64,000 bases of DNA from Rhizobium sp. FKL33 (GTDB lineage Bacteria; Pseudomonadota; Alphaproteobacteria; Rhizobiales; Rhizobiaceae). The notes beneath the pieces are model-generated. The model did no database searches and had not been told where the DNA came from. It worked only from the letters and a program-made list of their open reading frames with translations. The stretch's first letter is position 1. Each line of letters begins with the position of its first letter. Location of the stretch: NCBI RefSeq assembly GCF_005222915.1, contig NZ_STFX01000023.1, positions 1 through 64,000 on the forward strand. The letters are read 5' to 3'. The translations under genes and the position numbers were made by a program. This document shows, one piece after another, positions 1,030-22,770 of this stretch.

Positions 1030-1572
1030 TCATTGTGCGACAGTTTCAAGCCGCCGCGTCGCCGCGCGGATGCGTCCGGCAAGCCCCAACGCCTTCACAG
1101 CATTCACCCGCGCGCCCGGCAGCATGGGAAAGGTGACGATGGAAATCTCCCAGAGATCCGCTTCGAGGATCCGCCGCACGCCGCTTTTCGCATCCGCTTT
1201 GGCCCGCACCGTTTCGAAACCGATCGACAGCCCGTCGAGCGCCTTTGAGCGCATCAATTCGCGCACCTCCCGCGCCCGCGCCACGCCGTCGGACAACAGT
1301 CCCTCGACATAAAGCCCGCGCGCATCCTCCCGGATCGTCCGCCACACGCCGATCGGCTCGGCCGGATCATGCTGGTAGAGCATCCGCACGCCGCCCGCCC
1401 CGCGCCGCGCCAGCGATTTCAGAAAGGCCCCGTGCTCGACGCTGTCGCGGCCGAGATCGGTCTCGCCAAACAGGCTGGCGTAACCGGAAAACGCGCCGCC
1501 TGCATCCAGCATCTTGAGTTCGGGCGAAACGAAGCGTCGCCCGTCGCATCCGCAGATCGCGGTCCTGATCAT
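1030..1572 (-). CDS. HK97-family prohead protease (GTA/phage head gene)
   Basis: A 180-residue serine protease that cleaves scaffold and capsid N-termini during head maturation. Recognisable family features are GYASLFGETDLGRDSVEHGAF, the MLYQHDPAEPIGVW block with the conserved His, and LDGLSIGF followed by LWEISIVTFPM, which carries the catalytic-serine region. The start is the ATG at 1572 with AGGAG seven bases upstream; an in-frame extension to 1704 has no support. It lies on the same strand as DUF6107, portal and terminase further right, but is separated from DUF6107 by a 3.2-kb adhesin and two small genes. The major capsid gene expected next is not in the window to the left; the toxin-antitoxin pair lies there. 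Confidence 0.9.
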   Translation of the reverse strand: MIRTAICGCDGRRFVSPELKMLDAGGAFSGYASLFGETDLGRDSVEHGAFLKSLARRGAGGVRMLYQHDPAEPIGVWRTIREDARGLYVEGLLSDGVARAREVRELMRSKALDGLSIGFETVRAKADAKSGVRRILEADLWEISIVTFPMLPGARVNAVKALGLAGRIRAATRRLETVAQ

Positions 1573-1750
1573 GACAAACTCCTGGATTTTGAAAAAAGTC
1601 CCGCAGACTGCACTGCCACGACAGACCTGTGGTCGAACACCCTGATAAAGGCGGCTTTGATCATCGGGGAAGAAGAAGGTTTCAGCCTTCTTCCTCTTGG
1701 ACAAGACGATCCCGGCGCGGATGTCGCGAAGCGCCTTAGGACGCGTCCGC

Positions 1751-4700
1751 CTAAAGCAGGAAGTCGCTCTTGGACAAATCGTCGAGGTCCACGCCGGTCA
1801 GCACGATGGTCTCGCTATGGGTGAGCCGGATGACCGTATTCTCGCCGCTTTGCGCCATCAGGCTCTTCAACGCGTCGTAGCTGGCCAGGTCGAAATCGGA
1901 GATGTCGATGACATCATGCGCCGAACCCTTGACCTGGAAATCGGATATGGTGTCGCGCGATCCCGCTGTCGCGACGGTGAAGATGAACCGGTCTGCCCCG
2001 CCGCCGCCGCTCATCAGATCGCGGCCCAAACCGCCATTGATGCGATCCGCGCCCGATTCCCCGGCGATCGTGTCGGCTCCGGCGCCGCCATAGACGGTGT
2101 CTTTGCCGCTGCCGCCGTAAATGGCGTCGCTGCCCGATCCGCCGTCGATGATATCTGCGCCGCTGCCGCCGATCAGCGTATCGTTTCCACCGCGACCTTC
2201 TATCTTGTTGTCTGAAGCATCCCCGACGATCACGTCGCTCTTGCCGGTGCCCACCATATCAATCGGCGAAACCGGTTCGGTGATGACCAGGTTGAACGCG
2301 TCACTCGCCGTGAGCGCGCCGTCGCTCGCGGTTATGACAATCTCATAGCTGCCGACCTGGCTTTTCGTCGGCGCGCCCGTGATCAGGCCGGTCTCGGCGT
2401 CGAAACTCAGCCAGCCCGGCTTTTCGGCGCCATTGACGGTGATAGCGTAGTCGAGATCCCCACCTTCGGGATCACGAAAATGGCCGTCGCCGACGGTGAG
2501 CGAAAGAGCCGTGCCCGATGTCAGCGAGAGGTCGGAATTCGGATTGGAAAGGATCGGCGCGGCATTGGCCGTGCTCTCGTCGACGTCGGCGACCGCGACC
2601 GTGAAACTCTTCGTGACCGCGAGATTGCCGGCGTCCACGGCCGTGACCTCGATCGTCACCGAACTCGCGGCCTCGTAGTCGAGCGACAGGCCGGCTTTCA
2701 GCTTGAGCTCTCCGTTGATCACTTCGAACCTGACGTCGTCGACCGAATAGGTGAAGCTGCTGTCGTCGACATCGCTTGCCGTCACCGCGCCGAGGCTCGC
2801 GCCAACGGCATTCTCGGCGACCGTCAGCACATCGCCGCTCGGCGGCGTGACGACGATATCGGTCGGCGCGTCGTTGACCGCCGCCACCTGCACCGTGGAG
2901 GAGAGCGCGAACACGGCTGTGTCGGCGCCGCCGCCATCGTCCGAGAGACCGGTGATGCGGATGATGCGATCGTTCGTCGTCGGCTTTTCGCTGGTGTTGG
3001 CATAGGCGAGGCCGTCGATCAGGCTTGCGGCCTCCGCTTCGCTGAGCCCGCTGGCGGTGAGCGTGACCGTCGCCACGCCGGAAGCGAGGCTGACCGTATA
3101 GCCAATGCCGCTGCTGGTGACGCCGGCGCCCGCTTTGAGGACAATCGTCACGCCGTCGAGCGTCAGCTGTTCCGCATCGCCGTCTTTGAGCCCGCTTACA
3201 GTCAGCGTCATCCCGGTGATCGTCTGGCCGCTCTCGATGGTGTCGACGCTCACGTCGTCGAAGATGTCGGCGGCAGCCTGGCCTTCGGTGAAAACGGCGT
3301 TCGCGGCTGTGGCGGCGAGCGTCGGAGCGTCGTTCACGCCCGTGACCGTCATTGCATAGGACTGGTCGGTCAGCGTGTTGCCCTGGCCGTCCGACACCGA
3401 GAAGCTGAAGCTCGCGGCGCCGGTTTCGCTGCCGTCGTGGCGGAAGGCGATGACGCCCTGGTCGATGTCGTCCTGGGTGAAAGTCCCGCCCTTGCCGAGC
3501 ACGACGCCGTTCTTGAGCACCGCGCCGTTGGCGACGGCGCCGAGTTTGTAGGTGAGGTTGTCGGCCGTCTGGTCGAGATCGGCATAGAGCAGATCCGCCG
3601 CCGTCAGGGTGATCGTGTCGCCCTCGGCCAGGGTCGTCGCCACATTCGCGAGAGCATGAGGCGCCAGCGACACCGTGGTCAAAACGACGTCGTTGCCGTC
3701 GCCTCCGGCGTAGCTGATCTGGAAACCGGCGCCGGAGACGGTGAAGACCGCCCCTTCCGCCAGTCCGTCGAAGACGCCGCTCACGGCGTCGTCCTGCCCG
3801 TCATTGGCGATGATCGTGAAACTGTCGCCGACGTCGGGCGAAAAGCGCTTCAGAAGGGCGACGTCGAGGACGCCGTCGAGCGAGACGCTGCCGATGACGG
3901 TCACTTGGTCGAATTTGCCGACCGCCGTCCCGGCGATCTCGATCTCGAGCACGCCGTCCGCGCCGAAGCTGAGGTTGCCGGTCGTGAGCGCGCCGCAATC
4001 GGCGCCCGGCCCGAGCGCGCCCTCGACCGTCACCGCGCCGACCGTGCCGGCGCCGCCGAGCGTGGCGTCGGCCTCGATGACGAAAGCGGTGTTGGCGAGA
4101 GCGCCATTGACCAGCAACCGCCCCGAACTCGCCGTCCAGGTCTGCACGTCGCTGTTGGCGCCGGTCAGGGTCCAGGCGGCAGTCCCGGCCGATTCCAGCG
4201 TCTCGAAGGAGGAGACCGTCGACATGTCGAACGCACCGCCCGTGTCGCCGCTGAGCCGGAGCGTGTCGACGCCGCCGCCGATGATGTCGCCGATGATCGT
4301 TCCCCCCTGGACATCGAGGAGATTGACGCCGCTCTCGAAATAGATCGCCGCGGCCCGGACGCCATCGCCGCCGATGCCGCCAGTGACGACGCTGCCGCCG
4401 GCGAGCGTGATGGAGAGGTTCACGCCATAAATACCCTCTCCCCCGGCGCCGGCATAGCCGTTGAACGGAGACCCACTTTCCCAGCCCAGGCCGGCCTTGC
4501 CGCCGCTGCCGCCGGCGACGGAGCCCGCGAGGGTGAAGGATACGCCGCTCGTGTCGTTCAGAAAAAGGCCGATGCCGCCGCGGCCGCCGCTGCCGCCATA
4601 GTAGGACTGCGAACCGCCGCCGTCGCCGCCTGAAGCTCCCGTCAGGGTCGCCGTGATCGTGCCGAGGTCGCCGCTGCTCGTGATGACGGCGCCATAACCT

Positions 4701-4990
4701 CCGGCTCCGCCGCCGCCGCCGTCCAGGCCATACATTCCATATTGCCCGGCCGCGCCCTGACTCCCCGTCGCGGAGATCAGATTCTGAACTAGGCCAACAT
4801 AACCGTGGATGCCGCCGTCACCGCCCGAGTCGCCGCCGCCCTGGCCGCCCTGGACAGCGCCGGCGCCGCCGCCGCCGCCTGAAATCCCATTATACGCCCC
4901 GTTCCCGCCAATCCCGGTCGCAGAATTCACTCCGCCGACTGACGGAAATGCCTTCACCCCGCCTGTGCCGCCGCCTGTAATGGTTGTCAT
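1751..4990 (-). CDS. large RTX adhesin with cadherin-like domains
   Basis: 1,079 residues. The N-terminal third is Gly-rich (GGGG tracts) and autotransporter-passenger-like (a beta-helix pattern ending GNDVVLTTV). Next come a tandem-95/cadherin-like domain, Ig-like and cadherin-like modules and a putative Ig module (PGWLSFDAETGLITGAPT). The last fifth holds RTX nonapeptides (GGNDTLIGGSGADIIDGGSG and followers). The C-terminus has an M10_C-like module and ends LSKSDFLL, a type I secretion signal pattern. There is no Sec signal peptide. Expected role: calcium-stabilised extracellular adhesin. The start is the ATG at 4990 with AGGAG eight bases upstream. It splits the dispersed phage-head locus. 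Confidence 0.9.
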   Translation of the reverse strand: MTTITGGGTGGVKAFPSVGGVNSATGIGGNGAYNGISGGGGGAGAVQGGQGGGDSGGDGGIHGYVGLVQNLISATGSQGAAGQYGMYGLDGGGGGAGGYGAVITSSGDLGTITATLTGASGGDGGGSQSYYGGSGGRGGIGLFLNDTSGVSFTLAGSVAGGSGGKAGLGWESGSPFNGYAGAGGEGIYGVNLSITLAGGSVVTGGIGGDGVRAAAIYFESGVNLLDVQGGTIIGDIIGGGVDTLRLSGDTGGAFDMSTVSSFETLESAGTAAWTLTGANSDVQTWTASSGRLLVNGALANTAFVIEADATLGGAGTVGAVTVEGALGPGADCGALTTGNLSFGADGVLEIEIAGTAVGKFDQVTVIGSVSLDGVLDVALLKRFSPDVGDSFTIIANDGQDDAVSGVFDGLAEGAVFTVSGAGFQISYAGGDGNDVVLTTVSLAPHALANVATTLAEGDTITLTAADLLYADLDQTADNLTYKLGAVANGAVLKNGVVLGKGGTFTQDDIDQGVIAFRHDGSETGAASFSFSVSDGQGNTLTDQSYAMTVTGVNDAPTLAATAANAVFTEGQAAADIFDDVSVDTIESGQTITGMTLTVSGLKDGDAEQLTLDGVTIVLKAGAGVTSSGIGYTVSLASGVATVTLTASGLSEAEAASLIDGLAYANTSEKPTTNDRIIRITGLSDDGGGADTAVFALSSTVQVAAVNDAPTDIVVTPPSGDVLTVAENAVGASLGAVTASDVDDSSFTYSVDDVRFEVINGELKLKAGLSLDYEAASSVTIEVTAVDAGNLAVTKSFTVAVADVDESTANAAPILSNPNSDLSLTSGTALSLTVGDGHFRDPEGGDLDYAITVNGAEKPGWLSFDAETGLITGAPTKSQVGSYEIVITASDGALTASDAFNLVITEPVSPIDMVGTGKSDVIVGDASDNKIEGRGGNDTLIGGSGADIIDGGSGSDAIYGGSGKDTVYGGAGADTIAGESGADRINGGLGRDLMSGGGGADRFIFTVATAGSRDTISDFQVKGSAHDVIDISDFDLASYDALKSLMAQSGENTVIRLTHSETIVLTGVDLDDLSKSDFLL

Positions 4991-5407
4991 GTGAGAGTCT
5001 CCTGGCTTCAACCGCAGGGGCCGAGGTCAGGCCAGCAAGAGGTCGACGAAAAAATGCTGCAATATCGGTCAATTTCCGGCGATATCGCGCACAACCTTAG
5101 CATGCCGCAGCACCGCTTGAGACTGCAGATTTTTGGTCCAGCTTGGATCCATGCCGACAACAGCAATGGCTTTTCCGGCTCGGGTTACGTGACTGGGCAT
5201 CGGCCAAGACCGGAGATGATGGCGCCGCCGAGGCAGAGGCGGGCATCGCAAAGCCGGCCTCACCGCGCCGATCGCGGCCCCATCTCCGCCAGGGCTGCCG
5301 TCGACAGTTAGAGCTGAGCGGCCCCGCCCCCGTCTCGCTGCACACGCCACCATCCTCTAGATTGAAATGTGTTCATCTGCGCGCCAGAAATATCTGGAGC
5401 GACCCTC
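4991..5407. other. intergenic region, adhesin / hypothetical gene
   Basis: About 417 bases separate the divergent starts of the RTX adhesin and the hypothetical gene at 5408. Several short open frames on both strands have Arg/Pro-rich, shadow-like translations and no ribosome binding site, so I call no gene. Promoters for both flanking genes should lie here; I could not pick a convincing -35/-10 pair. Confidence 0.5.
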
Positions 5408-5794
5408 ATGAGGACGATTCTGCCCATGCCAGCCTGCCCTGAAGAAAAGATCTGGGACGAGATCAATACTGGCTGGTCGCGCATGTCGTTCCGCCAGCGT
5501 CATCTCTGGGAGGCGATCAAGCGGCCGCCCGAAGAATGGACCCTGTCCAGCTACGGCCCGTGCTGGGTCGTGGCGATCATCGGTGCGACCGTGGTCTATT
5601 ACAATTCCTATGAAGGCGGCTTCGATCTGTCGCCATGGACGCGCTATGGCGTCATCGACGCCTATCAGGGCCTGCAATATGATCTGGCAGGGGCCGTCGA
5701 GCGCCTGCAGACCATGATCGAAAGCGGCGTCGAAGCGGGACCGCATGGCAGCCGCCCCAGTGCAAGAGAATTCCAGCCGCGCCGCGACCGCTAA
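5408..5794 (+). CDS. hypothetical protein, 128 aa
   Basis: I do not recognise the family. The N-terminal half is charged and Trp/Arg-rich (MSFRQRHLWEAIKRPPEEW); a single hydrophobic stretch (GPCWVVAIIGATVVYY) could be a membrane segment; the C-terminus is basic. The start is the ATG at 5408 with GGAG eight bases upstream; a GTG at 5369 would add 13 residues but lacks a ribosome binding site. It converges on hicB with 13 bases between stops. The codon pattern (G/C in third positions) supports a real gene. Function unknown. Confidence 0.6.
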   Translation: MRTILPMPACPEEKIWDEINTGWSRMSFRQRHLWEAIKRPPEEWTLSSYGPCWVVAIIGATVVYYNSYEGGFDLSPWTRYGVIDAYQGLQYDLAGAVERLQTMIESGVEAGPHGSRPSAREFQPRRDR

Positions 5795-5807
5795 AGCACT
5801 GACGCAG

Positions 5808-6032
5808 TCACGACGCCGCCAGCGCTCTTGTGGTCGGGATCGGCGCCGCGCGCCCCAAGGCCCGGCTCTCGTCCAGCCAGTCGTCTATCGCCTCGCGCAC
5901 ATTGGCGATCGCCTGCTCCGGCGTCTCGCCATCGCTCATGCAGCCCGGCAGGTCGGGAACCGTCGCCAGAAATCCGCCTCCATCCTCTGCAGAGAGGGGC
6001 GTGACGATCACGGTGTCAATCAGCGGCGTCAT
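5808..6032 (-). CDS. hicB: HicB-family antitoxin, orphan
   Basis: 74 residues with the HicB partial RNase-H-like fold: GGGFLATVPDLPGCMSDGET, then PEQAIANVREAIDDWLDESR. HicB normally binds and inhibits the HicA mRNA interferase (about 60 residues). No hicA is visible: the upstream gap to 6106 is 73 bases and the downstream gap is 13 bases before a convergent gene. There is no C-terminal DNA-binding domain. It may be a solitary remnant or act on a partner elsewhere. The ATG at 6032 has GAGGA eight bases upstream. Confidence 0.85.
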   Translation of the reverse strand: MTPLIDTVIVTPLSAEDGGGFLATVPDLPGCMSDGETPEQAIANVREAIDDWLDESRALGRAAPIPTTRALAAS

Positions 6033-6105
6033 GGCGTGGTCCTCGCTTCATGGATCAGTGCTGCGACTTTTCAGACGATACCATATCCGCCAACCACAGA
6101 AAACC

Positions 6106-6471
6106 TCACCCCTTCTCCCTCCCCCACCGTCTCGCCAGCCGCTCGATCAGCCCCAGCCCCCACCAGGCGGTCACGCTCACGCTGGCCGCCCCCGTCAGCA
6201 TCACCTCCGAGGGCGAGAGCGCCGTGGTCACGCCCAGGCGCTGGGCCAGCCACACCCCGGCCGGGCCGCCGAAGATGACGCCGGCGATCAGGCCGGTGCC
6301 GAAGCGGGCGGCGGCTTCGCGGGTTCCGCGCGGCAGCATATAGACGAGCGACAGCGCCGCTCCCGCCGAGGCGCCGGCGGCGCGCTCCATCCAGAAGCCG
6401 GGGTCCTGGGTCAGGTCAGCCATCGTTAACAGTTTCACCGTATCATCCCCCCAATAGTCCAGGCTGATCAT
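6106..6471 (-). CDS. DUF6107 family protein (GTA head-cluster membrane protein)
   Basis: 121 residues with a core repeatedly found between portal and prohead protease genes in rhizobial GTA-like clusters: MERAAGASAGAALSLVYMLP, then RFGTGLIAGVIFGGPAGVWL. Two or three hydrophobic segments suggest a membrane protein; its biochemical role is unknown. I chose the ATG at 6471 because GGAGGAG sits six bases upstream; many homologues begin at the internal MADLTQDPGFWMERAAG (ATG at 6423), which here has no ribosome binding site. Order and strand fit between the portal (10.8-9.6 kb) and protease (1.6-1.0 kb), though both neighbours have been pushed kilobases away. Confidence 0.75.
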   Translation of the reverse strand: MISLDYWGDDTVKLLTMADLTQDPGFWMERAAGASAGAALSLVYMLPRGTREAAARFGTGLIAGVIFGGPAGVWLAQRLGVTTALSPSEVMLTGAASVSVTAWWGLGLIERLARRWGREKG

Positions 6472-6789
6472 CGGCCTCTCCTCCCGGTCCCGGGCGGGTC
6501 CGCAACAGCAAAAAGCCGAGTCTTCAGAATCGCTTGGCTGAGGTCGTTGAGACGCCGAATCCGTTTCAAGGCGCCCAATAAGACTGAGCCTTCACACGCC
6601 TCATGAACCGCCTGCCGGCGTCAGTCCGACATCCTCCGGAACACCCTGATTTCATTGCATTCTTCACCCGCCGCGCCTTTCTCGCCGCCGGTTTCGGCCC
6701 CGCTGAGGCCTCTCTCATTTTGAGTCAATCGCTCTGGACAAGCCCCTCGAAACGCTTAGCTTTAGGCTTGAAGCATCAAGGAGCCGCCC
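6472..6789. other. intergenic region between DUF6107 and the oxygenase gene
   Basis: A divergent 318-base region. It holds the ribosome binding site of DUF6107 (GGAGGAG) and that of the oxygenase (AAGGAG, seven bases before its ATG). I see no gene; the open frame at 6603-6842 overlaps the oxygenase start and has no recognisable product. Promoters for both genes should be here. Confidence 0.5.
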
Positions 6790-7767
6790 ATGTCCGATTT
6801 CCCCGTCATCGATCTCGCCGGTTTCGAGGCCGCCGATCCTGATAAAAAGCGGCAGATGGGGCGGGAGGTGGACCGCATCTGCCGCGCGTCCGGCTTCCTC
6901 GCGGTCGTCAACCACGGGATTTCGGACGAAACCATTGCCAATGTCTGGGCCGCCGCCCGCGCCTTTTTCGATCTGCCCTATGAGCTCAAGGATCAGGCGC
7001 GCGCGCCCTATCCCGGCTATCCCTACGGCTATCTCGGCCCGGGCGCCGAGGCGCTCGCCCGCTCCAAGGGCGTGGAAAGCCCGCCCGATCTCAAGGAAAG
7101 TTTCAATGGCGGCCCGCTCTCGGCGCCCGAAGGGCTGACCGATGAGGAGGCGCTGAATTTCTGCTATGCGCCGACCATCTGGCCGCGCGATCCCCAGGGT
7201 TTCCGAGGCGATTGGGAGGCCTATTACACTGATGTCACCGATCTCGCCGCCCGCATCATGCGCGTCTTCGCCGTGGCGCTCGATCTCGATGAAGCCTATT
7301 TCGAACCCTTCATCGCCAATCCCATCTCAGCGCTCCGGGCGCTCAATTATCCCGAACTCTCCGCCCCGCCGCCCGAGGGCCAGTTGCGCGCCGGCGCGCA
7401 TACAGATTACGGCAGCCTGACCATCCTTCTGCCGCAGCCCGGCTCGCGGGGGCTGGAAATCCTCACGCCCGAAGGCGCATGGCGCGAAGTGCCCCCCGTC
7501 GACGGCGCCTTCGTCATCAATATCGGCGATCTCATGGCCCGCTGGACCAATGACCGCTGGGTCTCCACGCTGCACCGCGTCGTCAACGTCCCCCCCGACC
7601 AAGGCGGCCTCGACCGCCGCCAATCGCTCGCCTTCTTCCATCAGCCCGACTGGTTCGCATCCATCGAAACCCTGCCCTCCTGCCTGGAGGCAGGCGAGAC
7701 GCCGAAATACGAGCCGGTGCTGTCGGGGCCGTATTTGATGGGGAAGTTTAGGAAGACGGTGGTGTGA
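6790..7767 (+). CDS. 2-oxoglutarate/Fe(II)-dependent dioxygenase, isopenicillin-N-synthase-like
   Basis: 325 residues, the usual length of the family. The N-terminal DIOX_N domain reads FPVIDLAGF...ASGFLAVVNHGI. The catalytic jelly roll has the iron triad HTDYGSLTIL (His, Asp) and STLHRVV (distal His), and RRQSLAFFHQPD holds the Arg-x-Ser that binds 2-oxoglutarate. The substrate cannot be told from sequence; bacterial members act on small molecules. The ATG at 6790 has AAGGAG at good spacing. It lies within the dispersed GTA locus on the opposite strand to the head genes, apparently as a single-gene unit. Confidence 0.92.
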   Translation: MSDFPVIDLAGFEAADPDKKRQMGREVDRICRASGFLAVVNHGISDETIANVWAAARAFFDLPYELKDQARAPYPGYPYGYLGPGAEALARSKGVESPPDLKESFNGGPLSAPEGLTDEEALNFCYAPTIWPRDPQGFRGDWEAYYTDVTDLAARIMRVFAVALDLDEAYFEPFIANPISALRALNYPELSAPPPEGQLRAGAHTDYGSLTILLPQPGSRGLEILTPEGAWREVPPVDGAFVINIGDLMARWTNDRWVSTLHRVVNVPPDQGGLDRRQSLAFFHQPDWFASIETLPSCLEAGETPKYEPVLSGPYLMGKFRKTVV

Positions 7768-7800
7768 CGTCGAGTTTATATTTGGTCGGATTTCTTCCCT

Positions 7801-8829
7801 ATGCTTGAAATAGATAGCAGACGCGCGATCGACCCCAAAAGCGTTTCACCAAGTGAGGTGGCAGCGGCAGTCGAAAAGCTTGGACGCCTTACGATCCAGT
7901 TCAGCCGCCCTGAGGCATATACGCCTGAGCTTCTCCGCTCGGTCAATGAAGCTTGCCGCATGGTCCGCGATGGCCTGGAAATTCGCTTCTATGGCCACTA
8001 TGGGCAGAGCTTCGACGCCAAAGTCCTCCGTCACTTGCCGGATGTCTATAACCTCAGCGTCGATTGCCTCACAGTCATCGAGAACGAGGACGAAATCAGC
8101 GCCCTGACCAATCTGAAAGAGCTCAGTATCGGCATCTTCGAGCTGAACCGTCCCGATTTTCTGAAAACCCTGCCACTTGAACACTTGCAACGCTTGTCCA
8201 TTTCCGAAAACAGAAAACGCAACTTCGACCTGTCGCCGCTGGCGGCGTGCAGCCAGCTCAAAGAGCTTTTCATCGAAGGTCATTCAAAAGGCATTGAAGC
8301 AATTGCAACCCTGCCGCATCTCAAGGAATTGCGATTGCGAGCCTACGCCAAGAAGCACGGGCTGGCGTTCCTCAAGGACGCGCCCGCACTTGAGGAACTG
8401 ACGTTGATCTTGGGAGGACGCGACGACATCGACGACCTCTCGAGCAAGACGCTGACTCTGATGCAGATCATCCTCGTGAAAGGCCTCGCGTCCCTCGGCG
8501 ACCTCTCGCGCCTGCCGGCGCTCAGGGCGCTTCGCATTGAGGACCAGATTCAGTTGAAACATCTGGATTTGAACGGCGCGAACCTCGAACGATTGGACGT
8601 GATCAACTGCAAGAACCTGTCGGCGATCGAAGGGCTGGACCGGCAACGACGGCTCCAGGAATTCGTGGCAAGTCGGGTCGCACTCGACCTGAATGGTCTC
8701 CGCGACCGCGATTGGCCGGCCTCCACGCGGGCGGTATGGCTTTACTCCGGCAGCATGAAATGGAATGACGCCACAGAGGCAAAGCTCGCGGCGCGAAATC
8801 TCGCTGGCGATCGTGGAAGATGGCCGTGA
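7801..8829 (+). CDS. leucine-rich-repeat-like protein, 342 aa
   Basis: The protein contains irregular LRR motifs from about residue 75 to 300 (LPDVYNLSVDCLTVI, LTNLKELSIGIF, LEHLQRLSISEN, LPHLKELRLRA, APALEELTLILGG, LPALRALRIEDQ). There is no signal peptide, so it is probably cytoplasmic. LRR arrays mediate protein binding; the partner is unknown. The start is the ATG at 7801 but the ribosome binding site is weak. The gene is less GC-biased than its neighbours. It follows the oxygenase by 33 bases and may be co-transcribed. Confidence 0.7.
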   Translation: MLEIDSRRAIDPKSVSPSEVAAAVEKLGRLTIQFSRPEAYTPELLRSVNEACRMVRDGLEIRFYGHYGQSFDAKVLRHLPDVYNLSVDCLTVIENEDEISALTNLKELSIGIFELNRPDFLKTLPLEHLQRLSISENRKRNFDLSPLAACSQLKELFIEGHSKGIEAIATLPHLKELRLRAYAKKHGLAFLKDAPALEELTLILGGRDDIDDLSSKTLTLMQIILVKGLASLGDLSRLPALRALRIEDQIQLKHLDLNGANLERLDVINCKNLSAIEGLDRQRRLQEFVASRVALDLNGLRDRDWPASTRAVWLYSGSMKWNDATEAKLAARNLAGDRGRWP

Positions 8830-8845
8830 TGAGATTTACTCACAA

Positions 8846-9331
8846 CTATTTGATCCTGAACGCTTTTTCCCGAACCTTCGCCCCGATCATGCTTCCGCCG
8901 GAAAACACGCCGCAAATCTTGGGATGCGCCGCATAATAGTCCGCCGGCATATAGAGATATCCTACGACTGGGTCAGGCAAAGCAGCCTGCCAGCCATCGA
9001 AATCGGCATCCTTCATTGTCGACAATTGGGCTGTGGAGACGCCATTCACGTACAGTTCCTCGAAGGAGCGGTCGCGGCTGCCACAGTCATCGATGACAAC
9101 GAAAAATGTCGATTCCCGGGCCCGCAGCTGCTGAACTGCGCTTTTCCCCAGCGTCACCGCGACCTTGCGCCATCCATCTGACGACGACGGCGTAAGGCCA
9201 GTTATCGTCGATGTCGGCCGGGTCGCGACGGTCTCCCTTGCAGTGACCGCGCCCGGGGCGATGCCGATAGCGCAGGAGGCGACCAGCGACGCGAGCCCCA
9301 ATCCCATGATGACGAAAACGCGTCGCCGCAT
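8846..9331 (-). CDS. hypothetical lipoprotein
   Basis: 161 residues. The N-terminus is a lipoprotein signal: a basic MRRR, a hydrophobic core and a VASC lipobox with Cys at residue 20, so the mature protein should be lipid-anchored. The rest (STFFVVIDDCGSRDRSFEEL, DPVVGYLYMPADYYAAHP) has a beta-rich look and matches no family I know. The ATG at 9331 has AGGAA upstream. It converges on the LRR gene with 16 bases between stops. Confidence 0.7.
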   Translation of the reverse strand: MRRRVFVIMGLGLASLVASCAIGIAPGAVTARETVATRPTSTITGLTPSSSDGWRKVAVTLGKSAVQQLRARESTFFVVIDDCGSRDRSFEELYVNGVSTAQLSTMKDADFDGWQAALPDPVVGYLYMPADYYAAHPKICGVFSGGSMIGAKVREKAFRIK

Positions 9332-15895: not shown

Positions 15896-16250
15896 AAACT
15901 TGCACCGCTCGCGATAAATCTAAGGAGATCCACATAGGTCATCCGCCCATGGATTTCACCCCCATCAACGAGCAACGCGTCGTTTTTGTTCAATCGCCAG
16001 CAAAAACATTGTCTTCAGGCGACTGGGGCGCGCGCTGGCCGCCCCCTCGCCTGCGGCACAATCTGCGGCGTTTGTGTCGTAGACGCCGCGTGTCCGGCCC
16101 GTCACCGAAGCCGCCGATCCTGATCGCCACTCTCGACATGCATCTCGATGATGACAGACGGATGACATGACTTCGGCATCTGCATTTGGACCATTGAGAA
16201 CATGCCATCTGAAGATATATCGATACTTCGCAGCAAATGGATCGAGATCG
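15896..16250. other. intergenic region without a convincing gene
   Basis: 355 bases between the HWE kinase start and the hypothetical at 16251. Overlapping frames on both strands (15949-16170 plus, 15965-16303 minus) give low-complexity Arg-rich translations and lack ribosome binding sites. An AAGGAGAT near 15923 is not followed by a start codon at useful spacing. The kinase promoter should lie here. Confidence 0.5.
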
Positions 16251-16580
16251 ATGGCTCCCTTTCCCACCCGGCCCAAGCTCAGTCTTTCGCGCCTGCGTGA
16301 CATCGGCTGGTCGCTGTGGGACCCGATAGGATTGCTGGGTCCCGAACAGCGATGGAACGAGGGCGACGCGCAAGATTTCGCAGACGAATATGATTCCTAT
16401 CTGATCGAGGCCGCCGGCCTCCTGCGCCGCGGCGCGCCCGATCAGGAAGTTGTAGACCTGCTCGTCAGCAGAGAGACGGTTCGCATGGGCGCGCCCCTGC
16501 GGACCGATACTTATGAACGCGCCCGCTCGACGGTGGCCGCCATCAAGGCGGACAAAGAGCTTTGGACAAACTCAGTATAG
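16251..16580 (+). CDS. hypothetical protein, 109 aa
   Basis: A small soluble protein of the kind found near Rhizobiales house-keeping genes: LRDIGWSLWDPIGLLGP, then DFADEYDSYLIEAAGLLRRG and YERARSTVAAIKADKELW. No catalytic motif is visible. The ATG at 16251 was chosen because homologous-looking sequence starts there; an upstream frame reaches 16167 without support. It ends 28 bases from the convergent kinase gene. Function unknown. Confidence 0.6.
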   Translation: MAPFPTRPKLSLSRLRDIGWSLWDPIGLLGPEQRWNEGDAQDFADEYDSYLIEAAGLLRRGAPDQEVVDLLVSRETVRMGAPLRTDTYERARSTVAAIKADKELWTNSV

Positions 16581-16607
16581 GCGTACGCTTTCCGGAAGAA
16601 GCGACCT

Positions 16608-17108
16608 TCAGCCCATGCTTCTCATGATCTCCGCAACACTGTCTTCGACAGAGAGACGGGCGGTGTCGATCCGCAGATCGGCTTTCCAGGGCTCGTAATG
16701 CCTGTTCTGGATGACCTCCCACGAGGGCGGCGACAGTCCAACGACAGAGGGCGATCTCGTCTCGGCGCGATGGCGGTGGACCGCAGCATCGGAGCAAACG
16801 ATTTCAACTCCAAAGAATCTTCTGCCGCACTCGTCAGCGACATCTCGAAAGGCCTTTCGGGTTTCAGGCAAAGGGTTCACGGAGTCCGCAACCACCGTCT
16901 GCCCGAGCCGCAGGTTATCCGCCGCCAGTCGATAGAGCGTCACATAGCCGCTTGGGCCGACATCCCTTCCCTCCGCCAGTGGCGCGGATGTGCGGATCGC
17001 CTGTTCGACCGTGTCCACCCGCAGATAGACAGCACCTATTCTCCGCGCCAAGGCCTGCGCCACCGTGCTTTTTCCTGATCCAGGCAGTCCGCCGAAAGCA
17101 ATAAGCAT
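16608..17108 (-). CDS. small P-loop kinase-like ATPase (AAA_33 type)
   Basis: 166 residues starting with a Walker A motif, GLPGSGKSTVAQALARR, followed by YLRVDTVEQAIRTS (a DTVE-type acidic site), TVVADSVNPLPETRKAF and a lid-like basic region (HRHRAETRSP). The fold matches gluconate-kinase/zeta-toxin-like small-molecule kinases that phosphorylate an alcohol on an unknown substrate. The ATG at 17108 is preceded by GAGGATGAAGG. It stands alone between two hypotheticals. Confidence 0.8.
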   Translation of the reverse strand: MLIAFGGLPGSGKSTVAQALARRIGAVYLRVDTVEQAIRTSAPLAEGRDVGPSGYVTLYRLAADNLRLGQTVVADSVNPLPETRKAFRDVADECGRRFFGVEIVCSDAAVHRHRAETRSPSVVGLSPPSWEVIQNRHYEPWKADLRIDTARLSVEDSVAEIMRSMG

Positions 17109-17240
17109 CCTTCATCCTCGCTCTGCGACGCCACTCTGGACTTGGCGTTCGACGTCTCCTCTTGGCGCCAAATGACTATTCGACATCGTCGTTCTGGATG
17201 GTATTGGAGTCAACGATACGATGGGAGCCCGAAGGACTCT

Positions 17241-17369
17241 ATGTTTATGAAGTGGGCCTATCTTGCCTTTGTAATTCTGATGATATTCCTTTTCGTTACC
17301 GGTCTTTGGAAGCCAGTATGGTACGCCATCATTGTATTTTATCTCGCCTTATCCGGCAAATCGATGTGA
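17241..17369 (+). CDS. possible small membrane protein, 42 aa
   Basis: The sequence begins MFMKWAYLAFVILMIFLFVT and continues into a second hydrophobic run (VWYAIIVFYLAL), giving two short transmembrane helices. AAGGA lies four bases before the ATG at 17241. No homologue is recognised. Low confidence, since short hydrophobic frames arise by chance, but the ribosome binding site and third-position composition are supportive. Confidence 0.35.
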   Translation: MFMKWAYLAFVILMIFLFVTGLWKPVWYAIIVFYLALSGKSM

Positions 17370-17419
17370 AGGACATGAGTTACGGCCGATCGGTCTACTC
17401 TTGACGCAAAATCTCCCCC

Positions 17420-17653
17420 TCACGCCAAACTCCCCCTCGCCGCCTCCTCCACCCGATAATCCGCCGCAATCCGCAGTTCCCTCAGCGGCCGGACAATCTC
17501 GATCGAGCGCTGATAGTTGGGATGCGCCTTGTAGGCGGCGAGCTGGGCTTCGCTTTCGAATTCGCCATAGACGATCAGGTCCGCCTCGCCGCCCAGCTGG
17601 TCGGTCTTCAGATTGGTCCCGAGCGGACAAGAACACACGATAGAACAGATCAT
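17420..17653 (-). pseudogene. internally deleted copy of the Dabb-domain gene (copy 1)
   Basis: The 77-residue frame (ATG at 17653) matches residues from TNLKTDQLGGEADLIVYGEF to the C-terminus of the intact gene at 19459-19770 almost exactly, but the N-terminal helix region (from SARDRADLDRIRAG to LLEIG) is missing and replaced by a short MICSIVCSCPLG. Copy 2 at 18558-18791 has the same deletion, so one of them arose from the other after the deletion. The reading frame is kept, so a shortened product is possible, but the barrel fold should be incomplete. Confidence 0.75.
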
Positions 17654-17802
17654 GCGGGCCTCTGGCGATGCGGGCTGGCCGCCATTGGCCCAAAGTGGTC
17701 ACCTCGCTCTCGGCGAAAGGTAGCGAAAATCCTAAATTTCGCAACAATTTGGTGTCTTGTGGCTCTGCGGTTCCCCCCACTTGATTCCGAATGAGAGATT
17801 GA

Positions 17803-18483
17803 ATGAGACGATTTTTCAAGCTCGCAGGCCTTTTCTTGGGCCTCCTGATCGTTGCGGCCTTTTTGTATGGTGGAAAAGGATATTGGGACGCCCTGTCGGA
17901 TGCTCCGCAACTACGTCGGCATGCGGACGAGTTGATAGCGCAGGGGCGAGGAAGAGAGTCGCTTGGTGCGGAGCATCTGGCGATATTGCTGAAGGTGGAA
18001 GATCCAAATTTTGAGAGTCATTTCGGAGTAGATTTTTCCACCGCCGGAGCTGGAGCGACAACAATAACGCAGTCGGCTTCAAAGCGCCTGGCTTTCAAGA
18101 AATTCCATCCGGGACTCGGCAAGATTCGTCAAACCGGCTACGCGATGGGGCTGGAAAGCCGGCTTTCCAAAGAACAAATCGTTGCCTTATGGCTCGACAC
18201 GTTGGAGATGGGCGAAGGCCCGGAAGGATGGATGACAGGCTTCCACAAGGCGAGTTCCGCGATCTATGGGCGGCCGCCCGCTGAGCTGAGCAACACGGAG
18301 TTCATTCGACTGGTAGCCGTTCTTATCGCGCCGGGATCGTACAAGCTCAGAGAGAACGATGCTGCGCTTGATGAGCGTGCCGGTCGAATTGAACGCCTGG
18401 TGGCAGGATCGTGTGCGCCCGAAGGATGGAGCGATGTATGGCTTGAAGGCTGCCGGAAAGCTTCAGATATCGAACCAGAATAG
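17803..18483 (+). CDS. compact GT51 peptidoglycan transglycosylase (MtgA-like)
   Basis: 226 residues with an N-terminal membrane anchor (about residues 7-23), then a short glycosyltransferase-51 domain: VEDPNFESHFGVDF with the catalytic Glu66, TTITQSASKRL, and ESRLSKEQIVALWLDTLEMG with the second acidic site. No transpeptidase domain follows. The GT51 QQLAKNL consensus is changed to QSASKRL. It would polymerise lipid II at the inner membrane. It sits between two truncated Dabb copies. The ATG at 17803 has no obvious Shine-Dalgarno. Confidence 0.8.
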   Translation: MRRFFKLAGLFLGLLIVAAFLYGGKGYWDALSDAPQLRRHADELIAQGRGRESLGAEHLAILLKVEDPNFESHFGVDFSTAGAGATTITQSASKRLAFKKFHPGLGKIRQTGYAMGLESRLSKEQIVALWLDTLEMGEGPEGWMTGFHKASSAIYGRPPAELSNTEFIRLVAVLIAPGSYKLRENDAALDERAGRIERLVAGSCAPEGWSDVWLEGCRKASDIEPE

Positions 18484-18557
18484 CATTGCAGCAGCTCTTG
18501 GAAGCATGACACTTGGTGAAGAACCCCATGACCGCAGATGGCGCAAAGCAGCCCCCC

Positions 18558-18791
18558 TCACGCCAAACTCCCCCTCACCGCCTCCTCCACCCGATAATCC
18601 GCCGCCATCCGCATCTCCCTCAGCGGCCTGACGATCTCGATCGAGCGCTGATAGTTGGGATGCGCCTTGTAGGCGGCGAGCTGGGCTTCGCTTTCGAATT
18701 CGCCATAGACGATCAGATCCGCCTCGCCGCCCAGCTGGTCGGTCTTCAGATTGGTCCCGGGCGGAGAAGAACACACGATAGGACGGATCAA
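18558..18791 (-). pseudogene. internally deleted copy of the Dabb-domain gene (copy 2)
   Basis: 77-residue frame with a TTG start at 18791, nearly identical to copy 1 and to the C-terminal two thirds of the intact gene at 19459. The same internal segment is deleted at the same place (junction PPGTNLKTDQ). Upstream it also shares GGCCGCCATTGG-type flank with copy 1 but not with the intact gene. Hence copies 1 and 2 derive from one deletion event. Confidence 0.75.
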
Positions 18792-18918
18792 GCGGGTCTC
18801 CGGCGATGCTGGCCGGCCGCCATTGGTCCAAAGCCGCCTAATGGTTCGGGTTGGAGCCGGACCCGTCCAACCTGCGACGGGGTCATGAGATTAAAGGCCT
18901 TACTCTGACCCCGCCGGT

Positions 18919-19347
18919 TCAACCGCAAATAATGCCGATATACTCTCCACTTATGAATTTCCTGTCGCCACGCCAATAGACGCTATGAACCCAGAAGCCG
19001 TAGGCATCGGCAACTTCATCGTTGGATATCAATACAACCGACACCCTCTCGTCATTGCGAGCGGCTTCAATTTTTTGTCGAGCTTTATCCAACGTATCGT
19101 AGACCATGGCGACATGTTCTTTGCCGTCGTACCCGACGAGGATAAAGCGCTTCTGGTGGGCCTCGACACCCCGCAGTCCGATCCCGAGTGGAACGCCGGT
19201 GATCGACACGCAGTTTCTTTCACCGTTGCAGGCCTCATATGCATGGCAGGACCAAGGGGGAGGTTCTGGATCCTTAAAAGCGCCAGCAGGAGAGGAGATC
19301 AACAGAAACAAAGCAATCCCAGTGAGTCTCTTCAAGAAAGCTCTCAT
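18919..19347 (-). CDS. secreted hypothetical protein
   Basis: 142 residues from the ATG at 19347. A Sec signal peptide is clear: basic MRAFLKR, hydrophobic ALFLLISSP, cleavage after AGA. The mature part carries two Cys pairs (SCHAYEACNGERNCVSI) and a later Cys near the C-terminus, so it is probably an exported, disulfide-stabilised protein; the DUF4189-like pattern (a domain common in small periplasmic proteins) is my best guess, with low certainty. It lies between the second and third Dabb copies. Confidence 0.65.
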   Translation of the reverse strand: MRAFLKRLTGIALFLLISSPAGAFKDPEPPPWSCHAYEACNGERNCVSITGVPLGIGLRGVEAHQKRFILVGYDGKEHVAMVYDTLDKARQKIEAARNDERVSVVLISNDEVADAYGFWVHSVYWRGDRKFISGEYIGIICG

Positions 19348-19458
19348 TCGCGGCGCCTGTGAAAACACAACTGTCTGATTGCTACCGAAAAAGGCTCTTG
19401 TGTCAACGATAACAGGCTATTCTCCATTGACCGCGAATGACGCAAAGCAGCCCACCCC

Positions 19459-19770
19459 TCACGCCAAACTCCCCCTCACCGCCTCCTCCACCCGATAATC
19501 CGCCGCCATCCTGAGCTCCCTGAGCGGCCGGACGATCTCGATCGAGCGCTGATAGTTGGGATGCGCCTTATAGGCGGCGAGTTGGGCTTCGCTTTCGAAT
19601 TCACCATAGACGATCAGGTCCGCCTCGCCGCCCAGTTGGTCGGTCTTCAGGTTGGTCCCGATTTCCAGCAGGATCTTGTCGGGGATCTCTGTGAGGATCG
19701 ACAGCCCTGCCCGGATGCGGTCTAGATCGGCCCTGTCGCGGGCGGAAAAGAAGACGATGTGGCGGATCAT
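19459..19770 (-). CDS. Dabb (stress-responsive alpha/beta barrel) domain protein, intact copy
   Basis: 103 residues: MIRHIVFFSARDRADLDRIR, then EADLIVYGEFESEAQLAAYK and AHPNYQRSIEIVRPLRELRM. This is the complete dimeric Dabb/ferredoxin-like fold; members bind small molecules or stabilise them, and the role here is unknown. The ATG at 19770 has GGAGG five bases upstream. Two shortened copies lie at 17420 and 18558 on the same strand, about 1 kb apart. Confidence 0.88.
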   Translation of the reverse strand: MIRHIVFFSARDRADLDRIRAGLSILTEIPDKILLEIGTNLKTDQLGGEADLIVYGEFESEAQLAAYKAHPNYQRSIEIVRPLRELRMAADYRVEEAVRGSLA

Positions 19771-19830
19771 TGGGGCCTCCGGCGATGCTGGCCCGCGCTT
19801 AGCACGGCCCACGCCCGGCGGGCAATCGCC

Positions 19831-20475
19831 TCACACCGTATAGGTGATCGCCCGGTAGAAGGCGCGGCCGAGCGCCGAGACCGTGTCCGGCACGCTGCCG
19901 GGATTGACGATCGCGCGCGCGCCGTCCCAGTCGCTATGCTTGCCGTGGAAATAGTCCTTGAGCGCCTCGCCGGTGAACAGGCCGGCGATCATGCCGTGAA
20001 ACAGGATCGTCACGCTCTTGGCTTCGTCCAGCGCATCGTCGGGCGTGTCCTCAATGCCGAATTTGCGGTAATTGTCGCGTCCGGTGATCTGCACCAGGCC
20101 GCGGCCGCGATAGCGCCAGCCGTCGCCGCTCTCCTCGGAACCATTGCCCAGCCGGTCGCCATAGCTGCGATTGGCGATTTTTTCGGGCTTGCGCGCATAG
20201 TCCTCGGCAATCTCGGGCGGGTAGCGCCTCGGCCAGACCTGGGTCAGCCGCGCGGCGGAGTAATTGAGATTTTCATGCACCGGCTGCATGGTGTGGGCGG
20301 ATTCGTGGTAGGCGGTCGCCAGAATATAGGCCAGCCAGCGGTCGTCCTCCTGCGCATGGTCGCGCTCCCAGGCGTCGAGCACCGTGTTGAAGCCGTGCCT
20401 CTGGTCCGGCGTCGGCGGTTTCTTGAGAACATTGCGCTCCACCTCTTCGAAAAAGAAGATGCGATTGATGCTCAT
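19831..20475 (-). CDS. GH19-like endolysin / putative chitinase
   Basis: 214 residues. AYHESAHTMQPVHENLNYSA holds the likely catalytic Glu58; YRGRGLVQITGRDNYRKFGI is the GH19 substrate-cleft motif shared by phage endolysins. It should cleave peptidoglycan (or chitin) and would release particles from a producing cell. The start is the ATG at 20475 with AGGGGG upstream; the frame is open to 20607 but homology starts at MSINRIFFFEE. It follows the large terminase (gap 142 bases) on the same strand, so it may be the lysis gene of the phage-head locus; no holin is apparent next to it. Confidence 0.85.
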   Translation of the reverse strand: MSINRIFFFEEVERNVLKKPPTPDQRHGFNTVLDAWERDHAQEDDRWLAYILATAYHESAHTMQPVHENLNYSAARLTQVWPRRYPPEIAEDYARKPEKIANRSYGDRLGNGSEESGDGWRYRGRGLVQITGRDNYRKFGIEDTPDDALDEAKSVTILFHGMIAGLFTGEALKDYFHGKHSDWDGARAIVNPGSVPDTVSALGRAFYRAITYTV

Positions 20476-20617
20476 GCCGGCCCCCTTGCGGTCTGTCTGG
20501 CGCGATGCGGCGCGCCGCGATTGCGTGATCGGATGAATGCTCAAAAATCTGCCTTTCGTCGAGACCATAGCCCAAGCACCTCTAATTGCAGCATTTAATG
20601 TATACAACCTAATTCAC

Positions 20618-22207
20618 CTAGACGTTGCGCACCCTCGGCTCGCCCGCCCCGGTCAGCATCAGCGCCGTCAGCGCCCAGACCAGCGCATCGAGCCGGTCGG
20701 GAGAGGCGCCGGTCGACAGCCCGTCGGGGCCGAAATCGCACATCTGGTCTTCGAGCGCCGGAAAGGCGCCGGCATGGGCGACGCGGCCCTGTTCATAGAG
20801 CGCGGCTGCCGGTTCGGCGCGGGCCCGTTTGCCGCGCCGGGCCGAGACGGTGGAAATGGGCAGGTTGGCGTCGGCGGCGCGCAGCACCGCCGTCACCATG
20901 TCGCCGCCCTGGTTGATCTCGGCGATCACCCGGTCGGCCTGGAAGCGTCTGTAGGCGCGGACGACGGCGTCCGCCCAGCGCGCCGGCGAGGCCCGCTCCA
21001 CCGAGCAATCGGCCAGCACCACCGCGCGGCCATCCTCGCCGAGCCCGGCCACCACGACGCCGCAGCAACTGTCGCGCGCGGCTTCCGACGCCGGCGGATC
21101 GACCGCCACGACAATGCGCCGCATCGGCCCGGGCGCGCGGATGCGGCTCCGTTCGATCAGCGCGCGGCTCCACAGCGCATCGTCGCGATCCTCGATCAGC
21201 TCGCCGTCGAGCTCCTGCCGGCCCAGCCGCGTGCCGCCATAGCGCTGTTCCAGCGCCGCGATGAAGCCGGGGGCGAGATTGTCGGCATTGTCGCGCGTCG
21301 CCAGCCGGGTCAGGACCGCGCCGGGCTCGGCGATCAGCCGCTTCAAGAGCGGCGTCGCGCGCGGCGTCGTCGTCGCCGCCTGCCGGGGTAGAGAGCCCAG
21401 CCGGAGGCCGAATTGCAGCATGTCCCAGGTTTCCTCGGCATGTTTCCATTTGCCGATCTCGTCGGCCCAGGCATAGTCGAATTGCGGCCCGCGCAGGCTT
21501 TCGGGATCTTCCGAGGAGAAGAGCTGCGCCGTCGAGCCGTTCGGCCAGACGAGCCGCTTTCGGCTCACCTCGAAGGCCGGCCTGTCGACCCGGGCGATGC
21601 GCCAGATCCCGGAGACGCCATCCACCATCACCTCGCGGGCGTCGCCCAGCGTCTCTGCGATCAGCGCAATCCGCACCGGGCTGTCGCCTGTCGCCAGCGC
21701 CTGCACCCATTCGGCCCCGGCCCGGGTCTTGCCCGAGCCGCGCCCGCCGAGGATCAGCCAGCTCCGCCAGTCGCCTTTGGGCGGCCGCTGGTCGCGCCTC
21801 AGCGCATGCCGCGCTTCGAGCCTGAGCAGCGCCGGAACCGGCAGAGCCAAAAGCCCCTCGGCGGTCAAAGGCGGCAAGGCGACTTGTTCGGCCTCGACCG
21901 TGGCGTCTTCCCCACCCTCGGTCGCGATCGTCGCCGGAGCGCTTGCGGGCTCCGCCGCCGATGCCGCGTCCGCTATTGCCGCGCCGCTCCCGGCGGCCAG
22001 CACGGTCTCGGCGACGCGCTTGTCCTCGTCGCGCGCGTCCTTCAAATTATGGAGCACCGTTAGCTTTTTGCTCACTCGCTGCAATGTCCTCGTCTTCGCC
22101 TTGACGGTTTTGACGGCCTGTCTCGCGGACGCCGCGACAGCCAACCGACGCGTCCTGAGCGACGGTCCCCGATTGGTCCGTCCATACCTGTAAGGGCCCG
22201 GCGTCAT
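20618..22207 (-). CDS. large terminase subunit, GTA/phage DNA-packaging motor
   Basis: 529 residues. The ATPase domain has Walker A LILGGRGSGKTRAGAEWV at about 151-168 and Walker B FDYAWADEIG; the nuclease domain has VVAVDPPASE and a later Asp in RVIAEINQGGDMV. It packages DNA into heads through the portal. The N-terminus is about 120 residues longer than a typical GTA terminase and is basic then Ala-rich; it could be a fused small subunit or an over-long start. The ATG at 22207 overlaps the stop of the upstream gene (ATGA), which supports translational coupling. Confidence 0.93.
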   Translation of the reverse strand: MTPGPYRYGRTNRGPSLRTRRLAVAASARQAVKTVKAKTRTLQRVSKKLTVLHNLKDARDEDKRVAETVLAAGSGAAIADAASAAEPASAPATIATEGGEDATVEAEQVALPPLTAEGLLALPVPALLRLEARHALRRDQRPPKGDWRSWLILGGRGSGKTRAGAEWVQALATGDSPVRIALIAETLGDAREVMVDGVSGIWRIARVDRPAFEVSRKRLVWPNGSTAQLFSSEDPESLRGPQFDYAWADEIGKWKHAEETWDMLQFGLRLGSLPRQAATTTPRATPLLKRLIAEPGAVLTRLATRDNADNLAPGFIAALEQRYGGTRLGRQELDGELIEDRDDALWSRALIERSRIRAPGPMRRIVVAVDPPASEAARDSCCGVVVAGLGEDGRAVVLADCSVERASPARWADAVVRAYRRFQADRVIAEINQGGDMVTAVLRAADANLPISTVSARRGKRARAEPAAALYEQGRVAHAGAFPALEDQMCDFGPDGLSTGASPDRLDALVWALTALMLTGAGEPRVRNV

Positions 22208-22770
22208 TCCGCCCGCGCCGCCCCGGTCTCTGCAGCGGCGCAGCTTTGCGCGCCGTCGCGCGTGGACAGGTCGGCATCGTCAGGCCCATCCCGCGCCTCG
22301 CCCGGCTCATGCCGCTCGCGCATCTCCGCCGCCAGTTCGCGGGCGCGGGCCTCGATCAGCCGCTCCACCCGCGCCGCCAGCGCCTTATGCGCCCCGGCGC
22401 CGAAACTCGCCTCCTCGCGCGCCGCCCGTTCTTCGGCGAGCGCCCGCTGCAGGCTGTCGAGCTTCTCGATGGTGCGGACAATCTGCTGGATCGCCTCGCT
22501 CGCCGCCTTGGCGTCGGCCTTGGCGGTCTTGTGGTCCTCGCCCTCGGTCTCCATCAGCTGTTGCGCGCGGGCCCGCATGGCGCGGAACATTTTGAGCTCT
22601 TCGCCGAGTTCGGTCACGATCTCGGCGAGCATCCGCGCGAGCTCCCGCGCCTCATCCTCCGCCGCCTTGGTCTCCGGCGCCATCTCCGGGTTCTCACCGC
22701 CCAACAGCGCCCGCCCGATCAGAAACTCCGCCTCAAAACCCTCGAAACCGTCGCCCAGATCGCCCGTCAT
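22204..22770 (-). CDS. small-terminase-position coiled-coil protein
   Basis: 188 residues from the ATG at 22770 (a TTG at 22827 would add 19). It is almost entirely helical and charged: coiled coil from about residue 30 to 155 (ELARMLAEIVTELGEELKMF, RTIEKLDSLQRALAEERAAR). It overlaps the terminase start by four bases. Position and helical character match the small-terminase-like gene of GTA clusters (RcGTA g1 slot); I do not recognise a DNA-binding domain, so the assignment is positional. Confidence 0.65.
   Translation of the reverse strand: MTGDLGDGFEGFEAEFLIGRALLGGENPEMAPETKAAEDEARELARMLAEIVTELGEELKMFRAMRARAQQLMETEGEDHKTAKADAKAASEAIQQIVRTIEKLDSLQRALAEERAAREEASFGAGAHKALAARVERLIEARARELAAEMRERHEPGEARDGPDDADLSTRDGAQSCAAAETGAARAE

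Follow-up and report, generated by a model that had tools for sequence, protein, structure and literature searches.

The window, the first 64,000 nucleotides of contig C18 of Rhizobium sp. FKL33 (genome G000) counted from the contig's base 1, holds the front half of a complete gene-transfer-agent (GTA) cluster of the type known from Rhodobacter capsulatus (RcGTA). Genes for a TerS-like small terminase, the large terminase (TerL), the portal, a DUF6107 protein and the prohead protease follow one another on its minus strand with other genes between them, and the rear half of the cluster lies at the end of a second contig, C43. Structurally and historically, this is almost certainly an intact RcGTA-type cluster stretched by accretion. 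Our full explanation, to which we give a probability of about 0.7, adds that the particle genes are under purifying selection and that the cluster would form a single GafA-type regulon with antiterminated read-through of the inserts.

The initial annotation had placed these five head genes on one strand in the canonical order, and both the order and the strand stand, with Pfam matches for the last four. The TerS-like gene (g1, 22204-22770) is recognized by its position, by an ATGA overlap with terL and by homology to the first gene of the congeners' clusters; family profile searches with its protein gave no convincing match. The overlap had also been reported at the outset, and the two genes do share positions 22204-22207. 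TerL (g2, 20618-22207; PF03237 and PF17289, Terminase_6N/6C) has a variable N-terminal extension of ~130 residues, and alignments with its relatives begin near residue 130. The portal (g3, 9649-10806) matches PF04860 Phage_portal (E 4e-80) and TIGR01537, the DUF6107 gene (g3.5, 6106-6471) matches PF19602 (E 5e-41), and the prohead protease (g4, 1030-1704, start codon uncertain) matches PF04586 Peptidase_S78 (E 4e-31) and TIGR01543. The gaps, close to those first given, are 9.8 kb between terL and portal, 3.2 kb between portal and DUF6107 and 4.4 kb between DUF6107 and protease. The DUF6107 protein also has a weak match to the holin family phrog_198 (E 0.005) and may be a lysis protein.

Capsid and tail genes had been proposed for a search to the left of the window. 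They exist, but on the other contig, since C18 starts there. A genome-wide search for HK97 capsids found two, one on contig C13 and one on C43, 1 kb short of that contig's right end. The capsid gene on C43 is followed on the same strand by head-tail connectors, the tail tube, tail proteins, an NlpC/P60 peptidase and the megatron, so that this contig end (L035) runs from the capsid at 16613-17872 to the megatron at 2084-5932. The megatron (GTA_TIM, Rcc01698_C) scores 1654 bits with the NF048004 equivalog against a cutoff of 800, matches PF13547 at 1e-130, and is followed by a 68-residue holin-like protein. Together, the window and the C43 end hold the full set of g1-g15 homologues, ordered and on one strand. 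No integrase, replication or lysogeny gene was found among the scanned proteins of the window and C43, a few short genes being outside the scan. The second portal and capsid, on C13, were considered as part of the cluster and rejected; they belong to another HK97-type phage region, whose portal is 30% identical to that of the window.

The right end of C43 and the start of C18 are two ends of one kind of insertion sequence (IS). Positions 1-77 of the window are the end of an element that we call IS4-like from its ends and transposase; its 14-bp terminal repeat ACTGCTGTCCGGTT points outward on both contigs, and the contigs have an 11-bp flank in common that sits in a dispersed intergenic repeat and is a weak link taken alone. 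In Rhizobium sp. G21 (G002), protease and capsid share a 4.3-Mb contig, and a transposase gene with the same kind of ends separates them; this gene is the single DDE_Tnp_1 match among the insert representatives, assigned to it by sequence. The C18 flank resembles the protease side of the G002 insertion and the C43 flank its capsid side, each at ~85%. The two genomes carry the element in opposite orientations, and the two insertions may therefore be independent. In Rhizobium sp. SG_E_25_P2 (G003), protease and capsid are 1.1 kb apart on one contig and the element is absent.

Relatives and permissive junctions

The genus is represented by nine genomes in our collection, and G003, G002 and R. setariae (G001) are the named ones nearest to that of the window. 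The three genomes with an expanded cluster, G000, G003 and G002, group in a single clade whose support is 1.0. Measured from the promoter through the megatron's end, the cluster is 37 kb long in G003, 47 kb in G002 and ~39 kb plus the IS in G000, and 20 kb in both G001 and G004. G003 and G002 have the gene order of G000, each on a single contig, and misassembly was rejected as the source of the gaps on this ground; the G002 megatron is in three pieces as assembled. In congeners outside the clade the order is unchanged and the cluster compact over the length that their contigs cover; one of them (G007) has no DUF6107 match. The order recurs in another genus (G019, compact, with a contig that stops at g10) and in another family of the order (G048, where TerS and DUF6107 matches are absent). 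This check of the relatives' loci bears out the initial proposal that insertions opened an ancestral cluster whose frames stayed intact. The head genes of G000 are unbroken, and no relative was seen to have the filling genes without the head genes, the fillers not having been searched genome-wide.

The position of insertions was surveyed in the best 80 of 498 confirmed portal-centred Rhizobiaceae loci with public record names, from genera that include Shinella, Martelella, Rhizobium, Neorhizobium and Ciceribacter; seven of the 80 come from the window's genus, and two are metagenome-assembled records labelled with other genera. Head genes had been taken to be adjacent in rhizobial relatives, which does not strictly hold: in 72 of 77 loci, terL and portal lie more than 700 bp apart. 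Gaps of this size are also common between portal and DUF6107 (43/73) and between g8 and g9 (32/58). They turn up now and then at DUF6107|protease (8/69), protease|capsid (6/74), g11|g12 (4/51), g5|g6 (1/64) and g1|g2 (1/71), and none was seen at g6|g7 (0/60), g7|g8 (0/60), g9|g10 (0/58), g10|g10.1 (0/55), g10.1|g11 (0/53), g12|g13 (0/48), g13|g14 (0/36) or g14|g15 (0/29). A zero in this sample is not a ban, because G000 itself has inserts at g14|g15, and also at g11|g12. These counts favour insertions being confined to a few permissive junctions, with overlapping or nearly touching gene pairs having stayed closed. The window's cluster is among the most crowded met in this analysis. The widest terL|portal gap among the 77 loci is 9.0 kb, in G003, and outside the window's clade 6.0 kb.

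The terL|portal gap has mostly different contents in the three expanded species. FkbM and the DUF1883 gene are common to them, adjoining the portal in both sisters, and the EAL gene is found in two, G002 being the second. The stretch between portal and dioxygenase contains a leucine-rich-repeat (LRR) gene and a small one in G000 and two other genes in G003; in G002 it has 3.6 kb with no called gene. In G000 and its sisters, repeated remnants of the Dabb gene lie between inserts, and G003 has a further copy of the last 211 bp around the portal end, 1.1 kb downstream and 84% identical. Such repeats of cluster genes were not found in the compact genomes, where the repeats of G005 and G006 sit outside the particle genes. 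The Dabb and portal repeats look like the product of insertion with duplication of target sequence.

Outside the 80 loci, G010 has a terL|portal distance of ~10 kb that includes a phage-like segment (L085:2897-15365), which has a portal (29%) and a protease (41%) of its own. On one side of the segment terL is cut near its 3' end, on the other, 10 kb on, there is a second piece of that 3' end, and the GTA portal of this genome is in two pieces.

Transcription, selection and alternatives

The core of a putative, near-invariant GTA promoter element occupies 22908-22937 on the minus strand, with an inverted repeat AGGA/TCCT, a -35-like TTGAC and a conserved spacer GGCGTGACGGT, and is followed by a -10-like TAGGGT. 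Its consensus, TAGGAAAATAaTCCTTGACGGCGTgACGGTnnTTTGaTAGGgTT, includes conserved bases between the two boxes and beyond the expected start. The window has a single match, with 0 mismatches, and 100 shuffles gave 0. The element lies within 900 bp of the terminase match in 64 of 77 survey loci, with 0 for a reversed control. Among the other 13, three have at most 270 bases of upstream sequence and five (L101, L102, L115, L119 and L160) have the element 1.2-1.9 kb before the first terminase match, which is TerS in four and TerL in L160, for a total of 69 of 77; insertions may thus be tolerated even between the promoter and the first gene. In eight of the nine congeners it occurs once per genome, each time upstream of terS, and in G002 it has a one-base deletion.

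Between promoter and terS, a terminator-like hairpin of 11 pairs with a T run (22791-22817, minus strand) is present, as it is in G003 and G002. Hairpins of this kind were found between the element and the terS match in 24 of 64 leaders against 2.4 expected from shuffles; the window's leader as a whole has a modest fold z-score of -1.6. A DUF6456 protein is encoded once in each of the nine genus genomes, and Caulobacter alone has one among 14 control genomes. DUF6456 is listed as gafA in PMC9765227. According to PMC11150451, a putative binding element for GafZ lies between -35 and -10 in Caulobacter, and this protein allows polymerase to pass terminators including rrnB T1 and corresponds to the C-terminal part of GafA; on this last ground we join the two and presume GafZ to be the DUF6456 part of GafA.

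The best explanation is the following. Foreign genes, among them toxin-antitoxin (TA) modules, signalling and transport genes and the IS4-like element, entered between particle genes at a few permissive sites, while junctions with overlapping or nearly touching genes remained closed and purifying selection preserved the particle genes. A GafA-type (DUF6456) activator would work at the one conserved promoter before terS, and the cluster is most likely still one regulon. An antiterminated polymerase, as for Caulobacter GafZ, would pass the leader terminator and the inserts, and the inserts' own terminators would leave the downstream particle genes expressed. If matters stand as in Caulobacter, such read-through would be a sufficient reason for insertions to be tolerated; whether antitermination is the actual reason we regard as an even bet. 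We infer that the cluster would produce particles and transfer genes.

The most serious competitor is a split regulon, in which the transcript would be broken at the inserts, leaving the downstream blocks to promoters of their own or to mismatched levels of expression. In its favour are the opposite-strand inserts inside the cluster (the dioxygenase, the MFS gene and a HigBA-like pair) and five sigma-70-like sites in 3500-23200. However, five sites are about what chance gives (3.3 ± 1.6), the promoter element has a single match in the window and is likewise single-copy in eight of the nine genomes, and inserts are family-wide, yet particle genes are conserved. We consider a split regulon unlikely, although it deserves to be kept in mind.

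Large insertions, duplicated remnants and the broken frames of the G002 assembly could instead betray a decaying GTA or prophage remnant, where insertions pile up in genes that no longer matter. All particle-gene frames of G000 are open, and 16 of 17 (g10.1 left out) align to G003 without stops, at full length or nearly so apart from the unalignable N-terminal parts of terS and terL, with ratios of nonsynonymous to synonymous substitution rates (dN/dS) of 0.02-0.32. A bootstrap on seven particle genes gave 95% intervals as follows: terS 0.32 (0.17-0.63), terL 0.26 (0.18-0.37), portal 0.08 (0.03-0.17), DUF6107 0.31 (0.11-0.74), protease 0.08 (0.02-0.20), capsid 0.05 (0.01-0.10) and megatron (g15) 0.14 (0.11-0.18). 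The five head genes thus range from 0.08 to 0.32 with upper bounds below 1, in agreement with the initial hint that selection keeps them. This constraint is not peculiar to particle genes, as several inserts show it too (against G003, TacA 0.14, MFS 0.15, PIN 0.19). With a promoter that matches the consensus as well, decay is very improbable. Separate acquisition and assembly in pieces, the other origin first entertained and one that the unequal gaps and intervening foreign genes might evoke, can be discounted, given that compact congeners share this arrangement, as do a different genus and a different family within the order.

Several results weigh against an intact cluster read as one regulon. 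As assembled (86% complete), G002 has broken frames in capsid, g15, dioxygenase and MFS gene, from sequencing errors or real decay, and terL is split in G006. The constraint on TerS and DUF6107 is just moderate, and the tape measure scores 119.9 bits (E 1e-34) against a cutoff of 220 with NF058675, the RcGTA-type short form. The endolysin is 43% identical to that of its sister G003, against 88-98% for TerS, TerL and portal, an identity so low that the gene has probably been replaced from elsewhere. The promoter element was not found upstream in 5 of 77 loci. By the criteria used, the leader hairpin is absent from all six compact congeners and from G019, which makes it dispensable for the basic cluster; it shows no association with the size of the terL-portal gap (24 versus 40 loci, p 0.68) and was rejected as a predictor of insert size. 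Terminator-like sites in 3500-23200 are not in excess (16 versus 15.0 expected).

Inserts, residents and toxin-antitoxin genes

The initial annotation had unrelated genes filling the gaps. This is right for the foreign inserts, but not for the GH19-like endolysin (19831-20475, minus strand; phrog_181 endolysin, 4e-49) and the Dabb-domain gene (19459-19770, minus strand; PF07876), which are regular residents present in 72 and 49 of the 80 loci; an MFS-like gene is present in 31. Self-comparison revealed two duplicated Dabb remnants on the minus strand, at 18558-18776 (~93% identity) and 17420-17638 (~92%). A block assigned by Pfam at 10871-18483 comprises a transglycosylase, an AAA kinase-like protein, an HWE histidine kinase, a response regulator, an FkbM methyltransferase, a PAS-GGDEF-EAL protein and the DUF1883 gene. 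A second, at 6790-9331, has the dioxygenase, the LRR protein and a small protein without family; the dioxygenase is at this place, on the opposite strand, in all nine genus genomes. A large RTX/cadherin-like protein (PF00353, PF16184) is inserted at 1751-5011 on the minus strand. Upstream of the GTA promoter and on the opposite strand, 22986-24450 holds a DUF6932 gene (PF22014) followed by an unnamed one; tblastn gave no match for either of them in the relatives' regions compared.

Three TA genes lie on the minus strand of the window: a HicB-like antitoxin (5808-6032, PF15919), a RelE-family toxin (628-987, PF06296, 5e-38) and its HTH antitoxin partner (300-635, PF01381). The C43 half adds TacA with a GNAT partner, FitA/PIN and a Gp49 (HigB-like)/HTH pair, plus a MazE-like gene whose weak match is under Pfam's cutoff. 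Across the survey, genes classed as TA occur inside 35 of 80 clusters (32 of 73 outside the genus) and in 1 of 71 upstream flanks, from 421 kb of non-GTA DNA inside and 370 kb upstream. Counted by gene families, the figures are 15 of 94 inside and 2 of 86 outside (p 0.002). Most frequent is a CopG-like gene (23 loci), accompanied by a ParE gene (17 loci), in the portal|DUF6107 gap. The candidates were chosen by eye among short representatives before a Pfam check; solitary HTH_3 and Phd-like genes were excluded on both sides, a HicA-like gene (L112) is under Pfam's cutoff, and Pfam tallies of inserts and flanks covered the top 25 families of each. Related loci are non-independent, and because of this shared descent and the partly by-eye classification the excess is a lead and not a measured rate. 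Enrichment through single families was dropped in favour of this comparison of cluster interiors with upstream flanks: 4 of 32 TacA matches (30 genomes) fall in GTA clusters, as do 3 of 133 PIN matches (9 genomes) within g1-g15, with one more just upstream of the G004 promoter, and these counts are no more than suggestive since three of each come from the one expanded clade.

A bolder proposal is that Rhizobiaceae GTA clusters are protected landing platforms. As a single, tightly controlled promoter would serve the whole block through an antiterminated polymerase, and its loss would be selected against, TA modules would gather at fixed junctions and be co-opted, either as addiction modules that anchor the cluster or as shapers of producer death. 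We hold this to be doubtful.

Known systems and fusion genes

With RcGTA and RcGTA-like clusters of Alphaproteobacteria the present one shares the g1-g15 order, HK97-type head genes, the diagnostic megatron, a DUF6456/GafA regulator encoded elsewhere and a promoter just before terS. It differs in that genes for an endolysin and a holin-like protein lie within or beside the block, and it measures ~39 kb plus the IS, with ~25 other genes inside, against ~14 kb according to PMC9836097, in which the word "toxin" occurs 0 times. Like the Caulobacter crescentus GTA under GafYZ/IHF control, as PMC11150451 describes it, the cluster appears to have a single promoter whose -35 and -10 boxes flank a further element, an early terminator and a DUF6456-type protein. 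The terminator site differs: it is a hairpin in the leader before terS here, and three 150-bp repeats after the first gene (terGTA) in Caulobacter; inserted genes are not mentioned for the latter in the sections of PMC11150451 consulted.

Other Rhizobiaceae clusters have the same order, promoter element and permissive junctions as the window's, with smaller gaps (terL|portal at most 6.0 kb outside the clade, ~10 kb in G010). In Rickettsiales, GTA genes are dispersed. The compact block is lost in both cases, but the present cluster retains order, strand and one promoter.

This is a GTA cluster enlarged by accretion and no new kind of system. Among the titles and abstract beginnings listed by searches of open-licence literature, we found no description of TA-rich or insertion-stretched GTA clusters or of the promoter element, and we do not claim their absence from print. 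GTA blocks are usually described as compact, and here an intact cluster under selection is about twice the length of those of close relatives. The pattern of allowed insertion sites comes with a candidate reason in the conserved promoter, leader terminators and antitermination. The promoter element offers a direct handle for finding and studying Rhizobiaceae GTAs, and the TA excess inside clusters is a testable lead on what retains GTAs in genomes.

At least 4 of 131 genomes of the family, from four genera, carry a single in-frame gene in which an N-terminal TerL ATPase that retains P-loop and DE motif is fused, at a common junction, to the C-terminal half of the megatron of the GTA (L087:11955-14435 in G016, L088:6400-8760 in G012, L183 in G117 and L184 in G065). 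A literature search for a fusion with the megatron listed one paper, on phage T5, and none of the open-licence titles and abstract beginnings listed describes the fusion gene, for which no absence from print is claimed either. In G012 and G016, it replaces the cluster between the cluster's usual neighbours. The proteins are 44-60% identical to that of G016; the gene seems to be maintained, as it is stop-free in the parts available and dN/dS is ~0.28-0.63, at high dS. In a fifth genome, G132, both parts lie in one 1075-residue frame with a different spacing.

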